Shown here piece after piece: positions 1-56,594 of a DNA stretch of 64,000 nucleotides. Under the pieces are notes generated by a model. That model was not told where the DNA came from, did not search any database, and worked only from the letters and a program-made list of their open reading frames with translations. Position 1 is the first letter of the stretch. Each line of letters begins with the position of its first letter. The position numbers were made by a program, and so were the translations under genes. This stretch comes from an uncultured Oscillibacter sp. (GTDB taxonomy: Bacteria > Bacillota > Clostridia > Oscillospirales > Oscillospiraceae). The DNA is taken from positions 17,505 through 81,504 of the forward strand of contig NZ_CANTJS010000005.1 of assembly GCF_947654275.1 (NCBI RefSeq), written 5' to 3'.

Positions 1-132
1 ATGGGCGGGAATTTTTCCTGCCAGACAAGGAGATTTTCTGCCGCAATCCTGACGGATTGCAAGGGAAATCGACGCAGTATGGCAGGAAAAAGGCCGTTCA
101 GACAGCGTTCGACGGTTGTGAATACAGGTTCT
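1..132 (+). repeat. MITE-like palindromic repeat, copy A (5' end cut by window)
   Basis: Shares most of its sequence with 1220-1386 and with the reverse complement of 3938-4106. It has nested inverted repeats: TTTTTCCTGCC at 12-22 pairs with GGCAGGAAAAA at 81-91, and GCAATCC (43-49) with GGATTGC (54-60) around a 4-base loop. The right end (RC reads AGAACCTGTATTCACAACCG, with small differences) matches the terminal repeat of the other copies and touches the spoIVB stop codon. It has no coding capacity. Confidence 0.85.
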
Positions 133-1139
133 TAATCCGCGCCGCTCTCCGCCGCTTTCAGCATATTTTCAATTAAAATTCCATACCCTTTTTGGGGATC
201 GTTTAAAAGAACATGGGTCACCGCGCCCACCAGCTTTCCGCTTTGAAGAATCGGGCTGCCGCTCATCCCCTGCACGATGCCGCCGGTGGCGGCCAGAAGC
301 TCCGGGTCCGTAACCGAGAGAACCAGATCCCGCCCGTCGGCGGAGCCGGAGACCACTTTCAGAATCTCCACACGGTACTCCCGGACCTCATCTCCCCGGA
401 CGTTGGCCCGGATTACCGCCGGGCCGGGCAGCGCTGTTCCCACCGGTACCGCTTCCTCCTCCGGCGGCGTCTCCAGAATTCCAAAAATGCCGCTGGTGGT
501 GTTGGCGTACAGGGTTCCCACGTCCCGGCTCAGGTCAAAATCTCCCCGGAGCTCTCCGGCGGCTCCCGCCTCGCCCCGCTTCACCGCCTTGACGGTGGAG
601 GGCAGGATGGCGCCGTTGGAGAAGGGCATCAGCATGGCCGTGTCCGTGTCGGTGATGCCGTGGCCCAGAGCGCCGAAGGCGCCGGTGGCCGGGTCATAAT
701 AGGTCATAGTGCCGATGCCCGCCATGCTGTCCCGAATCCAGGCGCCAATACAGTAAACGCCCTGGTCGTTTTGCTCCGGTTCCACGGACAGCGTCACGCT
801 GCCGCCGTCCCGGCGGACCTGGAGGTCCGCGGCTCCCTTCGCTCCGCCTTCCTGCAAAAGCGTCTGAAACTGCTCTGTGGAAGTGACGGCGGTGCCGCCG
901 CATTTTACAATCACGTCGCCGGTCTGAAGGCCGCAGGCCCGGGCAGGCGTTCCGCCCTCGGAGAGCCTGACCACCAGCACGCCCCTGGAAAACAGCTTGA
1001 TGCCCACCGTGTGCCCTACCGGCACCAGCATCCGGGCCGACTCAGCCCTTACCGGCATGGAGGCGCAGAGCAGACATGCCAGCAGCAGGGCCGCCCCGCC
1101 TCGCAGAACCTGTTTTGCGATTTTTGAGGGTCCATACAA
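132..1139 (-). CDS. spoIVB: SpoIVB peptidase (S55 family sporulation serine protease)
   Basis: 335 residues. A hydrophobic N-terminal signal/anchor (about 11-32) is followed by a PDZ domain (about 40-125) and an S55 peptidase domain. The catalytic His is in ALGHGI (about H160) and the nucleophile Ser in QGMSGSPI (about 293-295). In Bacillus this protease is secreted by the forespore and triggers pro-sigma-K processing; that role is inferred here. It is shorter than the roughly 425-residue B. subtilis protein. The likely start is a TTG six bases after an AGGGGTG ribosome-binding site; the nearby ATG is out of frame. It lies downstream of ftsZ rather than in the recN/spo0A neighbourhood known from Bacillus. 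Confidence 0.93.
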   Translation of the reverse strand: MYGPSKIAKQVLRGGAALLLACLLCASMPVRAESARMLVPVGHTVGIKLFSRGVLVVRLSEGGTPARACGLQTGDVIVKCGGTAVTSTEQFQTLLQEGGAKGAADLQVRRDGGSVTLSVEPEQNDQGVYCIGAWIRDSMAGIGTMTYYDPATGAFGALGHGITDTDTAMLMPFSNGAILPSTVKAVKRGEAGAAGELRGDFDLSRDVGTLYANTTSGIFGILETPPEEEAVPVGTALPGPAVIRANVRGDEVREYRVEILKVVSGSADGRDLVLSVTDPELLAATGGIVQGMSGSPILQSGKLVGAVTHVLLNDPQKGYGILIENMLKAAESGAD

Positions 1140-1219
1140 TCAAATCACCCCTTTCTTAGAAATCACCGGACGGATTCCGCCATAAACACAGGATTTTTTA
1201 GACTCCGGTCCGGATTTTA

Positions 1220-1386
1220 AAAACCTGTATTCATAGTCGGGAGACGCCGGGTGTGCGAGAATCTTTCCTGCCGGACAGGGATATTTTCCGCGGCCCGCGG
1301 CAATCCTGACGGATTGCAGGGAAACCCGACGGGGCATGGCAGGAAAAAACCGCTCAGCCAGTGTTCAACGGTTATGCATACAGAAA
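1220..1386 (+). repeat. MITE-like palindromic repeat, copy B (complete)
   Basis: The left end (AAACCTGTATTCATAGTCGG, 1220-1240) and right end (RC GTTTCTGTATGCATAACCG) form imperfect terminal inverted repeats. The interior keeps the TTTCCTGCC/GGCAGGAAA pair and the GCAATCC-TGAC-GGATTGC hairpin of copies A and C. It is more diverged from A than C is, which suggests an older insertion. It lies in the ftsZ-spoIVB gap. Confidence 0.83.
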
Positions 1387-1708
1387 CGCGCCGGAGCCTC
1401 CTGAAATATATCCGGTGCAGAACCGGCACACTTGAAAACCGGTTTCAGACAGCGGCCAGTCCGCCGTCCGGATTTTTTCGCGTGGGGGCTGCGAAGTCTG
1501 CCGCGGGGTCCAAAAGAAGCGTCTGCCCCCTTCAACCGCGGCGGCTTCTAAACGGCTTCATGCGCGTCGGATTCTATCATCTGCGGAAAGAGAAAATTCA
1601 GCACAAGCAAAAAGCGGCAGCGCCTCCATGGAGGCGTCTGCCTTCCGGTCGCCCCGGGCCGCCAACGAGCCGCCGCCCATGGGCTTCAGACGGCGGCCCC
1701 GGAAACGG

Positions 1709-1741
1709 AAAAAGACCCCGAAGGCAAAAGCCTCCAGGGTC
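1709..1741 (-). terminator. Rho-independent terminator of ftsZ
   Basis: Read on the minus strand, a 12-bp stem (GACCCTGGAGGC/GCCTTCGGGGTC, two G-U pairs) with a TTTT loop is followed by TTTTT. It lies 34 bases past the ftsZ stop, so most dcw transcription should end here and leave spoIVB to its own promoter. Confidence 0.9.
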
Positions 1742-1774
1742 CTCCGAAGTTTTCCATGGAATCTCTTGGGATGC

Positions 1775-2884
<1,110 letters not shown>

Positions 2885-3083
2885 AGTGCTGCCTCCTGCT
2901 GTCATTTGTATGAACGGGGAGCATTCGTCTTCAATTTCCTGTTTTTTCCTGCTTCTCGCCCGATGCACGCAACATAATATCTCTTCTCATTGTAAGCCAC
3001 TTTTTCGTTCCGGTCAAGTGTTGTATTGACTTTTCGACGGAAATTCTCAAAAAAACAAGTGCACGTCCTGGGATTTTCCGCTC

Positions 3084-3857
3084 TCAGCGGACATTCTGAT
3101 AAAACAGCACCCGTTCGCTGTCCAGCTGCATGTCGATGGTTCCGGTCATGTTGCTCTGGATTTTCTCGCTGGCCAGAACGGCGGTCAGCTTCTGGAGCTC
3201 CAGGCCGTAGTCCGCGCCGTAAGCCATCCGCACGGTGAAGCGCTCCGCGTAATCCATGTTCAGGCAGGACAGGTCATCCAGACGGATGCCGTCCACCTCC
3301 TCCGTAAGGCCCGCTTCCTCCAGAGCCCCCAGCAGGTTCACCAGGCTGGACTGCTGGGCGGCGTACTCCGTGGCCAGGGCAATGGACTCCCCCACCGCCG
3401 GGGCCAGCAGCTGACAGCCGGTAATGGAGGCGTAGCCGCCGGCGGCGCTCTCCTCCGCCTGCTCCAGAATTTTGCCCTGGGGGCTGATGAGCCAGGCGAA
3501 GCCGTCCTGAACCAGGGCCATAGGGGGGCCGCACTCCCGCACCTCAATGCGCAGCGTATCCGGCAGCTTCCGGTTGATGCGGATGCTCTCCACATAGGGC
3601 AGCGCCTGCGTGATGCGGGCGGCGACCTCGTGCTTGTTCAGAAGATACAGATTGTCTCCGCTCTCCACGCCGCTGGCCTCCCGAATCTGGTCCTCGGTGT
3701 AGCGCCGCTGGCCGCTGACGGTGATGGTCTCCACCCGGAAAAACAGGGTCAGCGCCAGGACTATGGCGGTGCAGATCACCGCGACGGACAGCAGCTTATA
3801 AAGGAAGCCCAGGCTTCCCCGTCTCCGCCTCCGTTTGGAATGTTTCCGTCTCGCCAT
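3084..3857 (-). CDS. divIB: FtsQ/DivIB-type division protein
   Basis: 257 residues. A very basic cytoplasmic N-terminus (RRKHSKRRRRRG) precedes one transmembrane segment (about 20-42). A FtsQ-type POTRA domain follows (VETITVSGQRRYTEDQIREASG, then NLYLLNK), and then the extracellular beta domain. This bitopic protein belongs to the FtsL/DivIC-DivIB complex that controls septal PBP and FtsW activity. It sits between murA and ftsZ, the usual place in Clostridia. The start has GGAG eight bases upstream. The sequence does not let me choose between the names FtsQ and DivIB. Confidence 0.93.
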   Translation of the reverse strand: MARRKHSKRRRRRGSLGFLYKLLSVAVICTAIVLALTLFFRVETITVSGQRRYTEDQIREASGVESGDNLYLLNKHEVAARITQALPYVESIRINRKLPDTLRIEVRECGPPMALVQDGFAWLISPQGKILEQAEESAAGGYASITGCQLLAPAVGESIALATEYAAQQSSLVNLLGALEEAGLTEEVDGIRLDDLSCLNMDYAERFTVRMAYGADYGLELQKLTAVLASEKIQSNMTGTIDMQLDSERVLFYQNVR

Positions 3858-3937
3858 GCCCGCAGCTCCAGTCTTCCCGTTTCTTTCCCCGCCCTTTGTT
3901 GGGGGCGTCCTTCCGGCGGCGATGTCCGCCGTTTTTT

Positions 3938-4106
3938 AGAACCTGTATTCACAACCGCTGAACGCTGTCTGAACGGTCTTTTTCCCGCCATACCGCGTCG
4001 ATTTCCCTTGCAATCCATCAGGATTGCGGCGGGCGCAAAAGAACTCCTTGTCTGACAGGAAAAATCTCCGCCCATCCAGCATTCCCCGGCTATAAATGCA
4101 GGTTCT
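3938..4106 (-). repeat. MITE-like palindromic repeat, copy C (complete)
   Basis: The ends are clear inverted repeats: AGAACCTGTATTCACAACCG at the left and, reading the other strand, AGAACCTGCATTTATAGCCGG at the right. Internally it is a close match to copy A in reverse orientation, including GCAATCC/GGATTGC (4007-4025 region). It fills most of the murA-divIB gap, inside the transcribed dcw operon. No target-site duplication is obvious. Confidence 0.88.
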
Positions 4107-4113
4107 CAGTTCC

Positions 4114-5364
4114 TCAGACCCGAACCGCGTCCCCGCCAAGGGCCCGCAAATCCCGGGCAATATCCTCATAGCCCCGGTCAATGTGGCAGATTTCGGAGAT
4201 CCGGGTCTCTCCCTCCGCCGCCAGGGCCGCCACGCACAGCGCCGCCCCGCCCCGGAGATCCGTACAGCGCACCGGCGCGCCGTGGAGGGCGTCCACCCCC
4301 GTCACCACCGCCGCCCGGCCGGAAACCCGGATATGGGCCCCCATGCGGGTGAGCTCATCCACATGGCGGTAGCGGTTTTCAAAGATGTTTTCCTCAAACA
4401 GCGTGGCCCCCCGGCTCCGCAGCAGCGCCGCCATTAAAATCGCCTGGGCGTCGGTGGGGAAGCCGGGATAGGGGGCCGTCCGCACAGGCCGCACCGCCTG
4501 GAGCCGTTCCCCTGCGGAACAGGAGATGCCGGCGGCATCGGCGGAGACGGCGCAGCCCGCCTCCCGCAGGATCGCGGTAACGGTGGACAGGTGCTCCTCC
4601 CTGGCGTTCCGCAGGAAGATTTCCCCGCCGGCGGCAGCGGCAGCGCAGAGATAGGTGGCCGCCGCAATGCGGTCCGGCATCACCGTATAAGTACATCCGT
4701 GGAGCTTTTGCCCGCCCTCAACGGCCACCGTCGAGGTCCCGGCCCCCGAGACCCTCGCGCCGCAGGAGACCAGGAAATTCTGAAGGTCCACAATCTCCGG
4801 CTCCCGGGCGGCGTTGGCGATGGTGGTGACGCCGGATGCGCCGCAGGCCGCCAGCATCAGGTTCTCCGTGGCTCCCACGGACGGCAGGCTCAGCACGATT
4901 TCCCGTCCCCTCAGCCGGGAAGCCCGGCAATAGAGGGTGCCGCCGGCATCGTCAATCTCCGCTCCCAGGTCCCGCAGGCCCGAGAGGTGCAGGTCAATGG
5001 GCCGGGGTCCCAGCTCACAGCCGCCGGGGTAACTCAGCTCCGCCTGTCCCTGCCGGGCCAGAATGGCCCCCAGGAAGATGGCGGACGAGCGCATCTCCCG
5101 CATCAGCCTGTCGGAAATCTCACATCCCTTCAGCCCTGCGGTGTCCACCGACAGGCAGCCGCCCTCCCAATGGGCCTCGCAGCCCAGGGACTCCAGAATC
5201 CGGACGGAAGCGTCCACGTCCCGGAGGCGGGGACAGCCCCGCAGCTCCACCGTGTCCCCCGTCAGCAGCGTCGCCGCCAGAATGGGCAGGACGCTGTTCT
5301 TTGCCCCCTGGACGGTCACCTCGCCCCGCAGCCTGCCGCCGCCTCTGATGAATAGCTGGCTCAT
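4114..5364 (-). CDS. murA: UDP-N-acetylglucosamine 1-carboxyvinyltransferase
   Basis: Catalyses the first committed step of peptidoglycan synthesis, enolpyruvyl transfer from PEP to UDP-GlcNAc, in the cytoplasm. 416 residues, normal for the family. The N-terminal GAKNS (about 20-24) carries the conserved Lys-Asn. The catalytic Cys is in PGGCELGPRPIDLHL, so the enzyme should be fosfomycin-sensitive in principle. The start ATG follows GGAGGG by eight bases. It lies between murG and divIB in the dcw operon; its stop is next to repeat copy C. Confidence 0.97.
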   Translation of the reverse strand: MSQLFIRGGGRLRGEVTVQGAKNSVLPILAATLLTGDTVELRGCPRLRDVDASVRILESLGCEAHWEGGCLSVDTAGLKGCEISDRLMREMRSSAIFLGAILARQGQAELSYPGGCELGPRPIDLHLSGLRDLGAEIDDAGGTLYCRASRLRGREIVLSLPSVGATENLMLAACGASGVTTIANAAREPEIVDLQNFLVSCGARVSGAGTSTVAVEGGQKLHGCTYTVMPDRIAAATYLCAAAAAGGEIFLRNAREEHLSTVTAILREAGCAVSADAAGISCSAGERLQAVRPVRTAPYPGFPTDAQAILMAALLRSRGATLFEENIFENRYRHVDELTRMGAHIRVSGRAAVVTGVDALHGAPVRCTDLRGGAALCVAALAAEGETRISEICHIDRGYEDIARDLRALGGDAVRV

Positions 5365-17445: not shown

Positions 17446-17562
17446 TAGTTTTTTCCTGCAAAAACGGAAGAAATTACAAAAGTCCCTTTGGAGGCCGTCA
17501 CAGTCCGCCGGCGGGCTCCGGCAGAGGCGGCGGCAGACGCCTCTGCGCCGCCGCCGCCGAAC

Positions 17563-33547: not shown

Positions 33548-36025
33548 TCAATCGTGCTTACCGAAGAACTTCTTCAGGAAGCCCGGTTTTTTGCCGGCAT
33601 CCTGTTTCCTGGCGTCTCCCTTACCGGAGACGTCCCGTTTGCCGGCTTCGGGCTTCCTTCCGGCTTCCCCGGCTTCGGGTTTTTTGATGGTTTTGACGGG
33701 CTCCGGCGGAGTCTGTCCGTTCAGCCGGTCCAGGGCCTCCTTCGCCCCCTCATAGTCCTGTTCCGCCGACTTGCCGTAGAGCTCGGCGGCTTTTTTCAGG
33801 TCCCGCTCCACGCCCTTGCCGTGCTCATAGCACCAGGCCAGGTGATACAGGGCCCGGGCGTGGTCCCGGTCCGCCGCCTGGCGGTAGAACCGGACCGCGT
33901 CCTTCCAGCTCTGGGGCACGCCCTTTCCGATTTCATAGAGGTAGCCCAGATTGCAGGCGCCTGTGCTGTCTCCCTGCTCGGCGGCCTTCCGGTACCATTT
34001 TGCCGCCTGTTCCGGGTCCTCGCCGGCGGCATCCATGCCGTGGCCGTTTTCAAAGCAGCAGCCGTAATTGCACATGGCCCTGGGATAGCCGGCCTCGGCA
34101 GATTGGCTGTACCACCGGACGGCCTCCGCCCAGCTCTGTTCCACGCCCTTTCCAATCTCGTACAGATAGCCCAGGTTGCACTGGGCCACCGCGTCGCCCT
34201 CTTCCGCCGCCTGACGGTAGAGCTCCGCCGCCCTGGACAGGTCCATCTCCACGCCCTCGCCGAACTCATAGCACAGTCCCAGATTGCACATGGCTCTGGG
34301 ATAGCCGGCGTCCGCCGCCTTCTGGTAGCACTCAGCGGCGGCCTTGTAATCCCGCTCTACGCCCCGGCCGTTTTTGTAGAAGACGCCCAGGCAGAACAGG
34401 CCCCTGGGGTCGTCCTGTTCCGCGGCCTTGCGGTACCAGTGGAGGGCCCGGGTCAGGTTGACCTCCACACCCTTGCCGAACTCATAGCACCAGGCCAGAT
34501 TGCACTGGGCTCTGGGGAAGCCCTGCTGGGCGGCGGCACTGTACCACTTGACCGCCTTCTCCCAGCTCTGTTCCACGCCTTGGCCGCTTTCGTACATATA
34601 GCCCAGGTTGCACTGGCCCGGCGCATTGCCCAGCTCCGCCGCCTTCTGATAGAGCTCCACAGCCTTTTCAAAGCTCTGCTCCACGCCCTCGCCCCGTTCG
34701 TAGCACACGCCCAGGTCGCACATGGCGGGGGCCGAACCGGCGTCCGCCGCCCTCTGGTACCAGCGGGCGGCCTCCTCGGCGTTCTGCTCCACGCCGATGC
34801 CGTAGTCATAGTTTCTCGCTACGCTGAACAGGCCTCTGGGGTCCCCCTGCTCCGCGGCCTTCATATACCAGCTGAAAGAGGCGGCGGGGTCCTTTTCCAC
34901 GCCCTTGCCGTGCTCATAGCACCAGGCCAGATTGCACTGGCCCCGGCTCAGACCGGCCTCGGCGGCCTTCTGATACCACTCCACGGCCTTCTCCCAGCTC
35001 TGCTCCACGCCCTCGCCGGTCTCGTACATGAAGCCCAGGCAGCAGGCGCCGTCCTCGTCGCCCTCCTCCGCCGCCTTGCGGTACCATTCCACGGCTTCCT
35101 TCTTGTTCAGGGGCACGCCCCGGCCCCGCTCATAGCACAGGCCCAGGCAGAGATAGCCTCTGGGATATTCCTGGTCTGCCGCCTCCCTGTAGAGGCGGAC
35201 GGCCTCGGCATAGTCCCGCTTGACGCCGCACTCGTGTTCATAGCACCAGGCCAGGTTGCACAGGGCCCTGGGATAGCCCTTGTCCGCAGCCCTGCGGTAC
35301 CACTTGACGGCCTCCTCCCAGCTCTGTTCCACGCCCCGTCCGGCCTCATAGCAAAAGCCCAGACAGCACATGCCCGGCGCGTTGCCCTGCTCGGCGGCAG
35401 CGGTGTACCACTTCACGGCCTGCTCCAGGTCCTCCTCCACGCCGCTGCCGAACTCCAGGCAGCGGCCCAGCTCCGTCTGCGCGCCGGGGTAGCCCAGCCA
35501 GGCGGCGGACTGATACCACTTGGCCGCCTCCTCCTCGCTCCGCTCCACGCCGCTGCCCCGGCGGTAGGCCTCTCCCAGAAGGAACTGGGCCCTGGGAAAG
35601 CCCTGTTCCGCACCCTTCTGGAAGCACTCCAGGGCCTTGGCGTAGTCCACTTCCACGCCGATGCCGTATGTATAGCAGTAGCCCAGATTGGTCAGGGCGG
35701 GCATGTACTCCTTGGAGGCCGCCTGGGCATAGAGCAGCACCGCCTGCCGGGGGTCCGCCTCCACGCCGATGCCGGCCTCCAGACACCAGCCCAGATTCGT
35801 CAGGCCCAGCGCGTCGTCCATGGCCGCCGCCCGCTGGTAGCAGGCCAGGGCGTCGGTCTCCCGCTTTTCGTCCACGGCCTGGTTGCCCAGGCCCACCCAG
35901 TCCCCGGCGGAGAGCTCCTCTTCCGTCATGGCGTTGAAAAAGGTGCCGCCGCAGCGGGGGCAAACGTCCGGCTCATCTTCCGCGATAAAGCCACAGTCCG
36001 GATTTTCACAGCGATAGTAGTCCAT
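33548..36025 (-). CDS. Giant Sel1-like repeat protein with N-terminal zinc ribbon
   Basis: 825 residues, no signal peptide. N-terminal zinc-ribbon Cys pairs CENPDC (6, 11) and CPRC (22, 25) precede about 19 Sel1-like repeats of about 36 residues, each with A.....LG.CYE.G.GVE....EAV.WY..AAE.G. The repeats form a TPR-like alpha solenoid for protein binding. The C-terminal tail (about 775-825) is basic and Pro/Gly/Lys-rich (KKPGFLKKFFGKHD). Repeats starting with GVEQSW recur at positions 5, 8, 12, 16 and 18, so blocks of about four repeats seem to have duplicated. Target proteins are unknown. It is transcribed just downstream of the TtcA-like gene? No: it ends 23 bases before the ttcA stop side, with ttcA upstream on the same strand. 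Confidence 0.92.
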   Translation of the reverse strand: MDYYRCENPDCGFIAEDEPDVCPRCGGTFFNAMTEEELSAGDWVGLGNQAVDEKRETDALACYQRAAAMDDALGLTNLGWCLEAGIGVEADPRQAVLLYAQAASKEYMPALTNLGYCYTYGIGVEVDYAKALECFQKGAEQGFPRAQFLLGEAYRRGSGVERSEEEAAKWYQSAAWLGYPGAQTELGRCLEFGSGVEEDLEQAVKWYTAAAEQGNAPGMCCLGFCYEAGRGVEQSWEEAVKWYRRAADKGYPRALCNLAWCYEHECGVKRDYAEAVRLYREAADQEYPRGYLCLGLCYERGRGVPLNKKEAVEWYRKAAEEGDEDGACCLGFMYETGEGVEQSWEKAVEWYQKAAEAGLSRGQCNLAWCYEHGKGVEKDPAASFSWYMKAAEQGDPRGLFSVARNYDYGIGVEQNAEEAARWYQRAADAGSAPAMCDLGVCYERGEGVEQSFEKAVELYQKAAELGNAPGQCNLGYMYESGQGVEQSWEKAVKWYSAAAQQGFPRAQCNLAWCYEFGKGVEVNLTRALHWYRKAAEQDDPRGLFCLGVFYKNGRGVERDYKAAAECYQKAADAGYPRAMCNLGLCYEFGEGVEMDLSRAAELYRQAAEEGDAVAQCNLGYLYEIGKGVEQSWAEAVRWYSQSAEAGYPRAMCNYGCCFENGHGMDAAGEDPEQAAKWYRKAAEQGDSTGACNLGYLYEIGKGVPQSWKDAVRFYRQAADRDHARALYHLAWCYEHGKGVERDLKKAAELYGKSAEQDYEGAKEALDRLNGQTPPEPVKTIKKPEAGEAGRKPEAGKRDVSGKGDARKQDAGKKPGFLKKFFGKHD

Positions 36026-55722: not shown

Positions 55723-56418
55723 ATGAACGCTCAGGAAATCATCGACTATATCGCCAATTCCGAAAAGAAAACCCCGGTGAAGGTCTACGTAAACCTGACG
55801 GAGGACGTGGACTTCGGCTCCGCCAAGGTCTACGGCACACGCCTGAGCCAGATTGTATTTGGGGACTGGGAGGAGCTCCGCCCCATTCTGGAGGCCAATA
55901 CAGACAAAATCGTGGACCTGGTGGTGGAGAACGACCGGCGGAATTCCGGCGTGCCCCTGCTGGACATGAAGGGCATAAAGGCCCGGATTGAGCCCGGTTC
56001 CATCATCCGGGAGAAGGTGGAAATCGGTGAGGGAGCCGTCATTATGATGGGGGCTGTCATCAACATCGGGGCCATGGTCGGCCGGGGCACCATGATTGAC
56101 ATGGGGGCCGTGCTGGGAGGCCGGGCCATTGTGGGGGACCACTGCCACATCGGCGCGGGCACCGTCCTGGCCGGCGTGGTGGAGCCCGCCTCGGCCACGC
56201 CGGTGGTCGTTGAAGACGGCGTGATGATCGGAGCCAACGCCGTGGTCATCGAGGGGGTCCGGGTGGGCCGGAACGCCGTGGTGGCCGCCGGGGCCGTGGT
56301 CATCGAGGACGTGCCGGAAAACGCCGTGGTGGCCGGCAGTCCCGCCCGGGTCGTCAAGATGAAGGACGAGAAAACAGAGAGCAAAACCGCGCTGGTGGAC
56401 GCGCTGCGGAAGCTGTAA
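55723..56418 (+). CDS. dapH: Tetrahydrodipicolinate N-acetyltransferase
   Basis: Transfers acetyl from acetyl-CoA to tetrahydrodipicolinate, opening the acetyl branch. 231 residues. Left-handed beta-helix of hexapeptide repeats ([31 protein letters not shown]), N-terminal domain [19 protein letters not shown] typical of DapH/YkuQ. Last gene of the lysine-riboswitch operon; AGGAGG upstream. Its final 55 bases plus stop are repeated exactly at 56540-56594. Confidence 0.95.
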
Positions 56419-56594
56419 GATCGGAAAGGAGGATAGCTCGAAAGGGACCCATCAGGGGTCCCTTTCGCTTTCAATAGCCCCGCCACAGCGGACGCTTTGC
56501 CACAGGCAAAGCGGAGAGTCGACGGTTTGCCGCCGGCTCGACGAGAAAACAGAGAGCAAAACCGCGCTGGTGGACGCGCTGCGGAAGCTGTAAG
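56365..56594 (+). repeat. 55-bp direct duplication of the dapH 3' end
   Basis: 56365-56419 and 56540-56594 are identical across 55 bases (starting GACGAGAAAACAGAGAGC, ending in TGTAAG), offset 175. The intervening 120 bases contain the dapH terminator, an orphan AAGGAGGATAG, and a CGCTTTGCC/GGCAAAGCG hairpin (around 56490-56512). Confidence 0.9.
56439..56472 (+). terminator. Terminator of dapA-dapB-dapH operon
   Basis: CGAAAGGGACCC, ATCAG, then GGGTCCCTTTCG, followed by CTTTC. Lies 21 bases past the stop and within the segment framed by the duplicated tail. Confidence 0.82.

Follow-up and report, generated by a model that had tools for sequence, protein, structure and literature searches.

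A stretch of 64,000 nucleotides from an uncultured Oscillibacter sp. (the window, positions 17505 to 81504 of contig C5 in the 3.05-Mb, 93% complete draft genome G000) holds three copies, here called A, B and C, of a short palindromic repeat. The three belong to a mobile, non-autonomous family of miniature inverted-repeat transposable elements (MITEs), and their inner 108 nt are a conserved structured module with strand asymmetry, which is found within many different ends. We consider it fairly probable that the copies represent a 161-167-bp MITE family that is likely moved in trans by a transposase of the IS1031 type of the insertion sequence (IS) family IS5, and that the 108-nt core hairpin likely acts as a folded single strand, probably RNA, between many transposon-type ends. 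A reading made from the letters of the window alone (the sequence-only reading) had suggested a mobile non-autonomous element or a structured RNA spread by one. The first half is borne out by copies throughout the genome, by target duplications that are identical in 34 of 44 cases, by empty sites in a sister genome (G034) and by IS5-type elements with the same ends in relatives; the second agrees with the covariation and the strand-asymmetric folding predicted for the core.

With copy C as the query, 40 places were recognised in the genome to which the window belongs (40 scored out of 73 candidates), and the end pattern TNAGAACCTGTATTCAYARCYG, with at most 3 mismatches, occurs 67 times in forward and 54 times in reverse orientation, against 0 and 0 in the reversed control. 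Because the pattern is present 121 times and the control gives none, a chance likeness is excluded. The ends of the element are GAACCTGTATTCAYARCCG, and its target duplications have the form TNA. In the fetched stretches of the genome, these ends form 57 inward-facing pairs, which delimit elements of 161 bp in 21 cases and of 167 bp in 14, the remaining elements being longer or shortened down to 50 bp. A TNA triplet stands on both sides of 44 pairs and is identical in 34 of them (expected fraction 0.30, P 9e-11), and over four genomes the duplications are identical in 94 of 116 cases.

The sister genome G034, with an FtsZ that is 99% identical and blocks of 90-98% identity across the aligned region, has neither copy A nor copy C, nor a short copy found 1.8 kb outside the window. 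At the site of this short upstream copy (C5:15696), the genome of the window reads TTA-element-TTA, while G034 has a clean TTA. Copy B is common to both genomes; its duplication has stayed TAA/TAA in G034 and has eroded in the genome of the window. Thus, copies A and C, which are absent from G034, are young, and copy B, present in both, is older. Copies of the MITE were found in 24 of a set made up of 119 relatives and the genome of the window (the latter counted), all in one genus, and a family-wide sample with two candidates scored per genome gave 32 of 300 genomes and 22 of 106 genera. One relative, G055, has many copies that are 93-99% identical to one of them, so the spread there has been recent, and several contigs of G055 and of another relative, G061, start or stop inside the element. 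The elements are therefore what is generally called a MITE, being short and non-coding, with terminal inverted repeats, dispersed copies, target duplications and empty sites. The sequence-only reading had made its mobile element depend on a search of the whole genome with copy C and on empty sites in a sister strain; further copies and empty sites (those of copies A, C and the upstream copy) both exist.

As for the enzyme that might move the family, DUF4096 transposase genes in relatives carry similar ends on both flanks. The best examples of such same-ended ISs are about 825 bp long and come from genomes G048 and G016. The first has two overlapping frames with an A-rich overlap, which match Pfam DUF4096 and DDE_Tnp_1 above the cut-offs and the NCBIfam IS5-family model below its cut-off, as halves; the second has a single 256-aa frame and the duplication TTA/TTA. 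A scan of named genomes covered 71 transposase loci, of which 39 have some inward end pair at a loose cut, many by chance. At 17 of the 71 (including L321 and L330, which are sources of query rows), the inward ends have no more than 4 mismatches altogether, and 11 of these 17 have identical TNA duplications. Three loci (L328, L329 and L360) start with GAACCTGTATTCACAA, as the MITE does, and L322 has GAACCTGTATTCA at both ends. The passages of PMC12016507 on the IS1031 subgroup of IS5 describe TNA targets; for ISLrh, one of its members, they give two overlapping frames and GAACCTGT... as ends. The MITE resembles what is said there of the subgroup and ISLrh in its TNA target, its 3-bp duplication and its ends starting with GAACCTGT, and differs from the subgroup in that the element in the window has no transposase and shares just the terminal 15-19 bp, as judged by eye. 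Mobilisation in trans by an IS5-family transposase of the IS1031 type is likely on the strength of these sequence comparisons. A transposase with matching ends, which the sequence-only reading had proposed to look for, is thus present in the genomes of relatives; none was found in the draft genome of the window, in which three DUF4096 stretches have no such ends nearby. A PF13359 search was also tried as a transposase source for this end type and was set aside, its loci being without a pair of GAACCTG-type ends; the same loci hold elements with two other end types. At one further locus (L094, G047:C10), an IS5-type element with GGGCTTGTTTGAA ends (1429-2274) and an expanded MITE that carries the core and has GAACCTG ends (2284-2616) are separated by 10 bp.

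The inner part of the element is predicted to fold into a hairpin, and one strand does so better than the other. For copy C, the predicted energy is -86 kcal/mol on the minus strand (z -7.8) and -57.5 on the plus strand (z -4.7). The same strand folds better in 140 of 142 MITE copies (means of -84.9 and -63.8), in a set limited to elements of 150-175 bp, which kept 127 of 146 and to which 15 from other genomes were added, and RNAalifold consensus energies favour this strand in G000, G055, G061 and the 15 divergent copies. The pairing is also accompanied by covariation. In an alignment of 22 MITE copies from 18 genomes, two-sided changes affect 17 of 50 pairs, with 47 cells against 16 after shuffling, and in an alignment of 27 cores taken across end types they affect 28 of 34 pairs, with 138 cells against 45 (standard deviation 5.4) in 500 shuffles, the highest of which stayed below 138; slid versions of the structure give 26-69 such cells. 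A larger alignment of 111 matches (A7; 103 distinct) has 977 two-sided cells against 312 in shuffles, although, being fitted by the model, it leans towards the modelled structure. The same strand is again the better one in 24 of the 27 cores of the first set (A6) and in 89 of 91 distinct cores of A7, of which the first 98 of the 111 rows were taken for the counts of strands and of end patterns. It is mainly the internal loops and bulges that hold the most conserved letters (CAAGG, CGCAG, CAAG, AACGCAG, and GA opposite GA), while the stems vary freely. A search of Rfam with positions 1-5000 of the window and ten core-bearing loci returned nothing near the gathering score. The core is likely to act in its best-folding strand, probably as RNA.

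The family-wide search also gave matches to the inner part only, in which the cores match and the ends do not. Outside the MITE family, the ends found around matching cores include TACTAATATC, GGCCTTGTTTGAA, GAGCCTATCC, GGGAACCCCTGAATAAATG and others, so to speak different wrappings of the same core. Of 115 rows, 82 fitted an end pattern on both sides; after the removal of 7 rows that repeated a place, 76 of 108 distinct core places have flanks that both match one of 19 end patterns, and with the flanks read backwards none of the 115 rows does. Twelve of the patterns occur at two or more places and seven at one only. The 19 patterns were read off the same places on which they were counted, and since some resemble each other, the number of unrelated kinds of ends is smaller, perhaps a dozen. 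Target duplications differ between kinds of ends: identical 3-bp TNA duplications flank 8 of 8 TACTAATATC loci, and identical 4-bp duplications flank 7 of 10 GGAACC loci.

Four kinds of ends besides that of the MITE match the ends of other IS5-type elements, of IS length, at transposase loci. Elements of 1125-1127 bp with GGCAACACCGC ends and one of 1217 bp with GGAACCTCTGA ends are found at DDE_Tnp_4 loci (the cut-off of the model is exceeded at two of these four loci), whereas DUF4096 loci hold elements of 846-847 bp with GGKCTTGTTTGAAAAA ends, which differ from the MITE end GGCCTTGTTTGAA by one or two bases, and elements of 846-947 bp with GAGCCTATCC ends. The loose scan for IS-length elements gave many chance pairs, and of 12 elements that were inspected, 10 have good ends and two (L099 and L340) do not. 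No autonomous IS carrying the core was found: among 85 loci (84 transposase loci and one viral contig) there are seven core matches, none of them between delimited IS ends, with the IS borders at L108 and L103 left undetermined. Given that the lengths, the transposase families and the sizes of the duplications differ, a slow drift of one set of ends is unlikely, and we infer that a core re-packaged between the ends of different transposons is the better reading. Each type of end could then be moved by its own IS5-type enzyme. In the literature that we searched, we met no report of a structured core common to MITEs with different ends, which is not proof of absence; an end-swapping hairpin core appears to be new, whereas MITEs derived from IS5 are already known.

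The core is also distributed much more widely than the MITE. A covariance model, R1, built from the 27-core alignment, recognises it in at least 154 of 394 genomes and 71 of 168 genera of the order, and in at least 20 of 398 genomes and 18 of 267 genera of the phylum, 16 of these 20 genomes being outside the order; both counts are lower bounds because of stricter filters and nine candidates scored per genome, and the distribution is drawn from samples and short flanks. The sequence-only reading had considered that a cis-acting RNA fixed at the loci of the window would speak against its mobile element, and the structure is not fixed there. Phage and viral sequences offer a possible route between genera, as one phage record from human faeces (L538, MT835573.1, 672-779) and two IMG/VR contigs (L392 and L541) hold core-bearing MITEs or parts of them with three kinds of ends. 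The whole MITE was found in one phage record and in no plasmid record, and L511 has a counterpart in one Paenibacillus replicon among plasmid records. The core of L413 gave nothing in plasmid records and that of L516 nothing in phage records, while L516 has a 50-bp match in two Streptomyces plasmid records, one of which was fetched (L539) and is not scored by R1. In viral contigs, the exact core pattern occurs 0 times and two other patterns occur in one contig each. The core module may reach Actinomycetota.

Some of these loci have peculiarities of their own. The Streptomyces sp. NBC_01766 plasmid (L539, around 540-710), which R1 does not score, contains a longer hairpin with AGACCGGCCGGGAATTGGGGG-like ends and similar loop letters (CAAGGCGGAGGATTGAG ... 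GACGACAACGC). At six loci (L507, L508, L509, L513, L481 and L527), a pair of adjacent cores points in opposite directions, and no terminal repeat of the DNA type was seen there; the flank of some of them resembles a tRNA T-arm (GGTTCGACTCCCGC). At two loci of G447 (L494 and L495), the core is joined on one side to a terminator-like hairpin and not to a terminal repeat.

The pattern of substitutions gives some indication of where selection on the fold might act. Changes private to one copy produce G.U and A.C about equally often, with ratios of 8:8, 6:8, 11:9, 7:6 and 21:25 in five sets (by genome or of divergent copies), while on the branches of a tree the ratio is 43:28 for inner branches and 137:179 for tips (P 0.012). 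As private changes are neutral and inner branches favour G.U, copies apparently decay freely once they are inserted, and the fold appears to be kept in the source elements. We infer that selection keeps it there as a condition for spreading and not as a host function of the resident copies; in the proposed sequence of events, the fold would be required for the spread of the source elements, and the inserted copies would then decay.

Several observations weigh against this account and have to be set beside the evidence above. On the side of the fold, RNAalifold favours the other strand in G034 (-19.5 for the strand preferred elsewhere and -31.0 for the other), and with all 142 copies together the strands hardly differ (-9.2 and -7.4). 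The structure counted on the 27 cores is that of one aligned member, and the branch test is a parsimony count on a short alignment. Part of the strand asymmetry is inherited: when pair columns are counted, G.U exceeds A.C by 21:6 in the MITE (P 0.006) but by only 12:4 in the core set (P 0.08). Among 79 tandem gene settings, there are only 27 (P 0.0066) in which the strand that folds well is also the one transcribed. On the side of the ends, 32 of the 108 core places fit no pattern, no terminal repeat was seen around the core in G075, G087, G102 and G548, identical 4-bp duplications occur at just 2 of 6 GGCAA loci, and among the GAACCTGT loci of other genomes 4 of 12 have identical 3-bp duplications and 4 of 12 give no pair. 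On the side of mobility, the junctions of the empty sites of copies A and C in G034 are not base-exact, no likeness between MITE and IS is visible by eye beyond their terminal 15-19 bp, and the 93% complete draft genome of the window gave no match to the ORFB transposase of the partner element, for which reason movement in trans is put forward here as likely and not as observed.

Four other explanations have to be weighed. The family could be an ordinary selfish MITE in which the ends alone matter, the hairpin being a by-product of a palindromic origin and of arm repair by template switching, and the likeness of the cores reflecting common descent. This agrees with the IS5-derived MITEs that are well known from the portions of PMC3852290 and PMC4596501 that describe them, and with private changes that are neutral for pairing in resident copies. 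We nevertheless consider it unlikely, as arm repair would re-establish Watson-Crick pairs without regard to strand, and yet nearly all distinct cores fold better on one strand; moreover, unpaired letters of internal loops are among the most conserved while the stems change, and descent through the ends alone does not explain a core that persists between different ends. A rather more serious contender, though still somewhat improbable in our estimation, is that the core works as a hairpin of one strand of single-stranded DNA, for instance in lagging-strand DNA or as a site recognised during transposition or gap repair, and not as RNA. A folded strand of DNA would account for strand-specific folding and covariation as well; besides, transposon-type ends usually accompany the module, and it is the source elements on which selection appears to work. 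What inclines us to RNA is that G.U is a standard pair in RNA, whereas G.T is weaker in DNA, and that RNA often has internal loops in which GA faces GA.

The remaining two explanations concern the host genes. Among 146 insertions in four genomes, none lies inside a called gene (genes were called by our own codon-usage script) and 29 coincide exactly with a stop codon, which is TAA or TGA in 28 cases and now TAG in one. The duplication restores the stop codon at the insertion, and six insertions create a new TAG from TTA and the first base of the element. Such positions could suggest a cis-acting RNA that is useful to the host, such as a terminator, an mRNA stabiliser or a processing site, spread by transposons and kept by the host, and the sections of PMC3733652 on MITEs describe copies that form structures within mRNA and change how stable it is. 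We regard this as very unlikely, because two of the three copies in the window are absent from the sister genome, resident copies decay neutrally and the strand with the strong hairpin is transcribed in so few of the tandem settings, which argues against a useful mRNA element. It is just as doubtful that the insertion machinery prefers stop codons and that the family is a stop-codon-targeting element. TNA does include TAA and TGA, and the 29 insertions compare with 17.1 expected from local intergenic TNA sites (over the 118 copies that lie between two called genes), the excess being significant in G000 (P 0.0008); however, it is not significant in G034, G055 and G061 taken alone (P 0.11, 0.58 and 0.12). 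At copy A, the empty site in G034 shows that the stop codon predates the insertion. The simplest reason for the 1.7-fold excess is the survival of harmless insertions, and targeting was rejected as the main account, the effect being real, modest, and significant alone in one of four genomes.

Several known systems come close to the family. As far as the relevant passages of each source go, the MITE of ISMma12 in Methanosarcina acetivorans is 140 bp long with 3-bp repeats (PMC3852290), BrickBuilt of Porphyromonas is an IS5-derived MITE (PMC4596501) and MITEAba12 makes 9-bp duplications (PMC6382973). The family in the window resembles all three in being short and non-coding, with IS-like terminal repeats and target duplications in some or most copies; unlike what is found here, those passages report no conserved structured core between different terminal repeats. 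The bcr1 repeat of the Bacillus cereus group is presented in the relevant parts of PMC3446304, PMC2267715 and PMC6542083 as a structured, MITE-like, multi-copy intergenic repeat of about 150 bp that is suggested to be transcribed. Our family is likewise multi-copy, intergenic, MITE-like and structured, and differs, in a comparison by description only, in that the mobility of bcr1 is tied in these accounts to a TTTAT motif and not to TNA and that bcr1 is said to be restricted to its group. Repetitive extragenic palindromic (REP) elements, which the section of PMC3733652 devoted to them gives as 20-40 bp and associated with transposases of the IS200/IS605 type (REP-associated tyrosine transposases, RAYT), are also palindromic, extragenic and of high copy number. 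The family described here is 161-167 bp long with terminal repeats and TNA duplications, and we do not count it among REP elements or the bacterial interspersed mosaic elements (BIMEs), no search for a RAYT gene having been made.

Within the window, sequence comparison and the covariance model of the core confirm that the three copies are real and homologous, and the model finds exactly three places, so the earlier statement that there is no further copy in the 64 kb stands. The borders proposed earlier needed correction. Copy A (window 1-134, plus strand) is cut by the window edge, its left part lying beyond it; the entire copy corresponds to contig bases 17472-17638 (G000:C5:17472-17638, window -32 to 134), and its hairpin core (1-106, plus strand, 99.8 bits with R1) has lost its 5′ end at the window edge. 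Copy B (1218-1385, plus strand), the eroded one, has its left TAA at 1218-1220 and a damaged right end, intact in G034, so that its right border is approximate, with its core at 1249-1362 (plus strand, 48.2 bits). Copy C (3936-4108 with its flanks, minus strand, which is its best-folding strand) is a 167-bp element at 3939-4105 flanked by TTA at 3936-3938 and TCA at 4106-4108, with its core at 3964-4077 (minus strand, 78.1 bits). Copies A and B point the same way and copy C the opposite way. The copies were said to contain no open reading frame, and we agree, judging those that overlap them to be short mechanical ones or to belong to the neighbours.

The genes around the copies are all on the minus strand. 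Next to copy A is spoIVB (132-1139; Peptidase_S55 and PDZ, Pfam PF05580, 243 bits), the stop codon of which is the insertion site; the copy had been described as abutting this stop, which is correct as far as it goes, the right duplication TTA at 132-134 being the stop codon itself. Between copies B and C lies ftsZ (1775-2884, start codon approximate; PF00091 and PF12327), copy C is preceded by a gene for an ftsQ-type division protein (3084-3857; POTRA_1, PF08478), and copy C follows 5 bp after the stop codon of a murA-type gene of the EPSP synthase family (4114-5364; PF00275). The shortened 82-bp copy before the window (G000:C5:15696-15783), absent from G034, gives a TAG stop to the preceding gene, and in G034 the reading frame seems, by eye, to continue for about 18 codons at this site. 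Elsewhere in the window, a gene at 33548-36025 has many diverged 108-bp (36-codon) repeats that are Sel1-like by impression only, and a perfect 55-bp direct repeat occurs at 56365-56419 and 56540-56594, 175 bp apart.

MITEs are usually regarded as passive leftovers whose ends define them. In the present case, it is the middle that stays while the ends vary, which reverses the usual picture and raises the question of what in the cell reads the hairpin and why so many transposon-like elements carry it. One tentative answer, to which we give somewhat less than an even chance, is that the selfish unit is the RNA hairpin itself, conserved, strand-specific and about 108 nt long, spreading through Bacillota and perhaps beyond by repeated re-packaging between different IS5-type terminal repeats, each with its own transposase and duplication, and that its conserved loops are recognised by a widely shared factor of the host or of the transposons. 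Model R1 and the locus lists provide direct starting material for pursuing this question, and near-identical copies within single genomes, such as those of G055, suggest that active systems exist.

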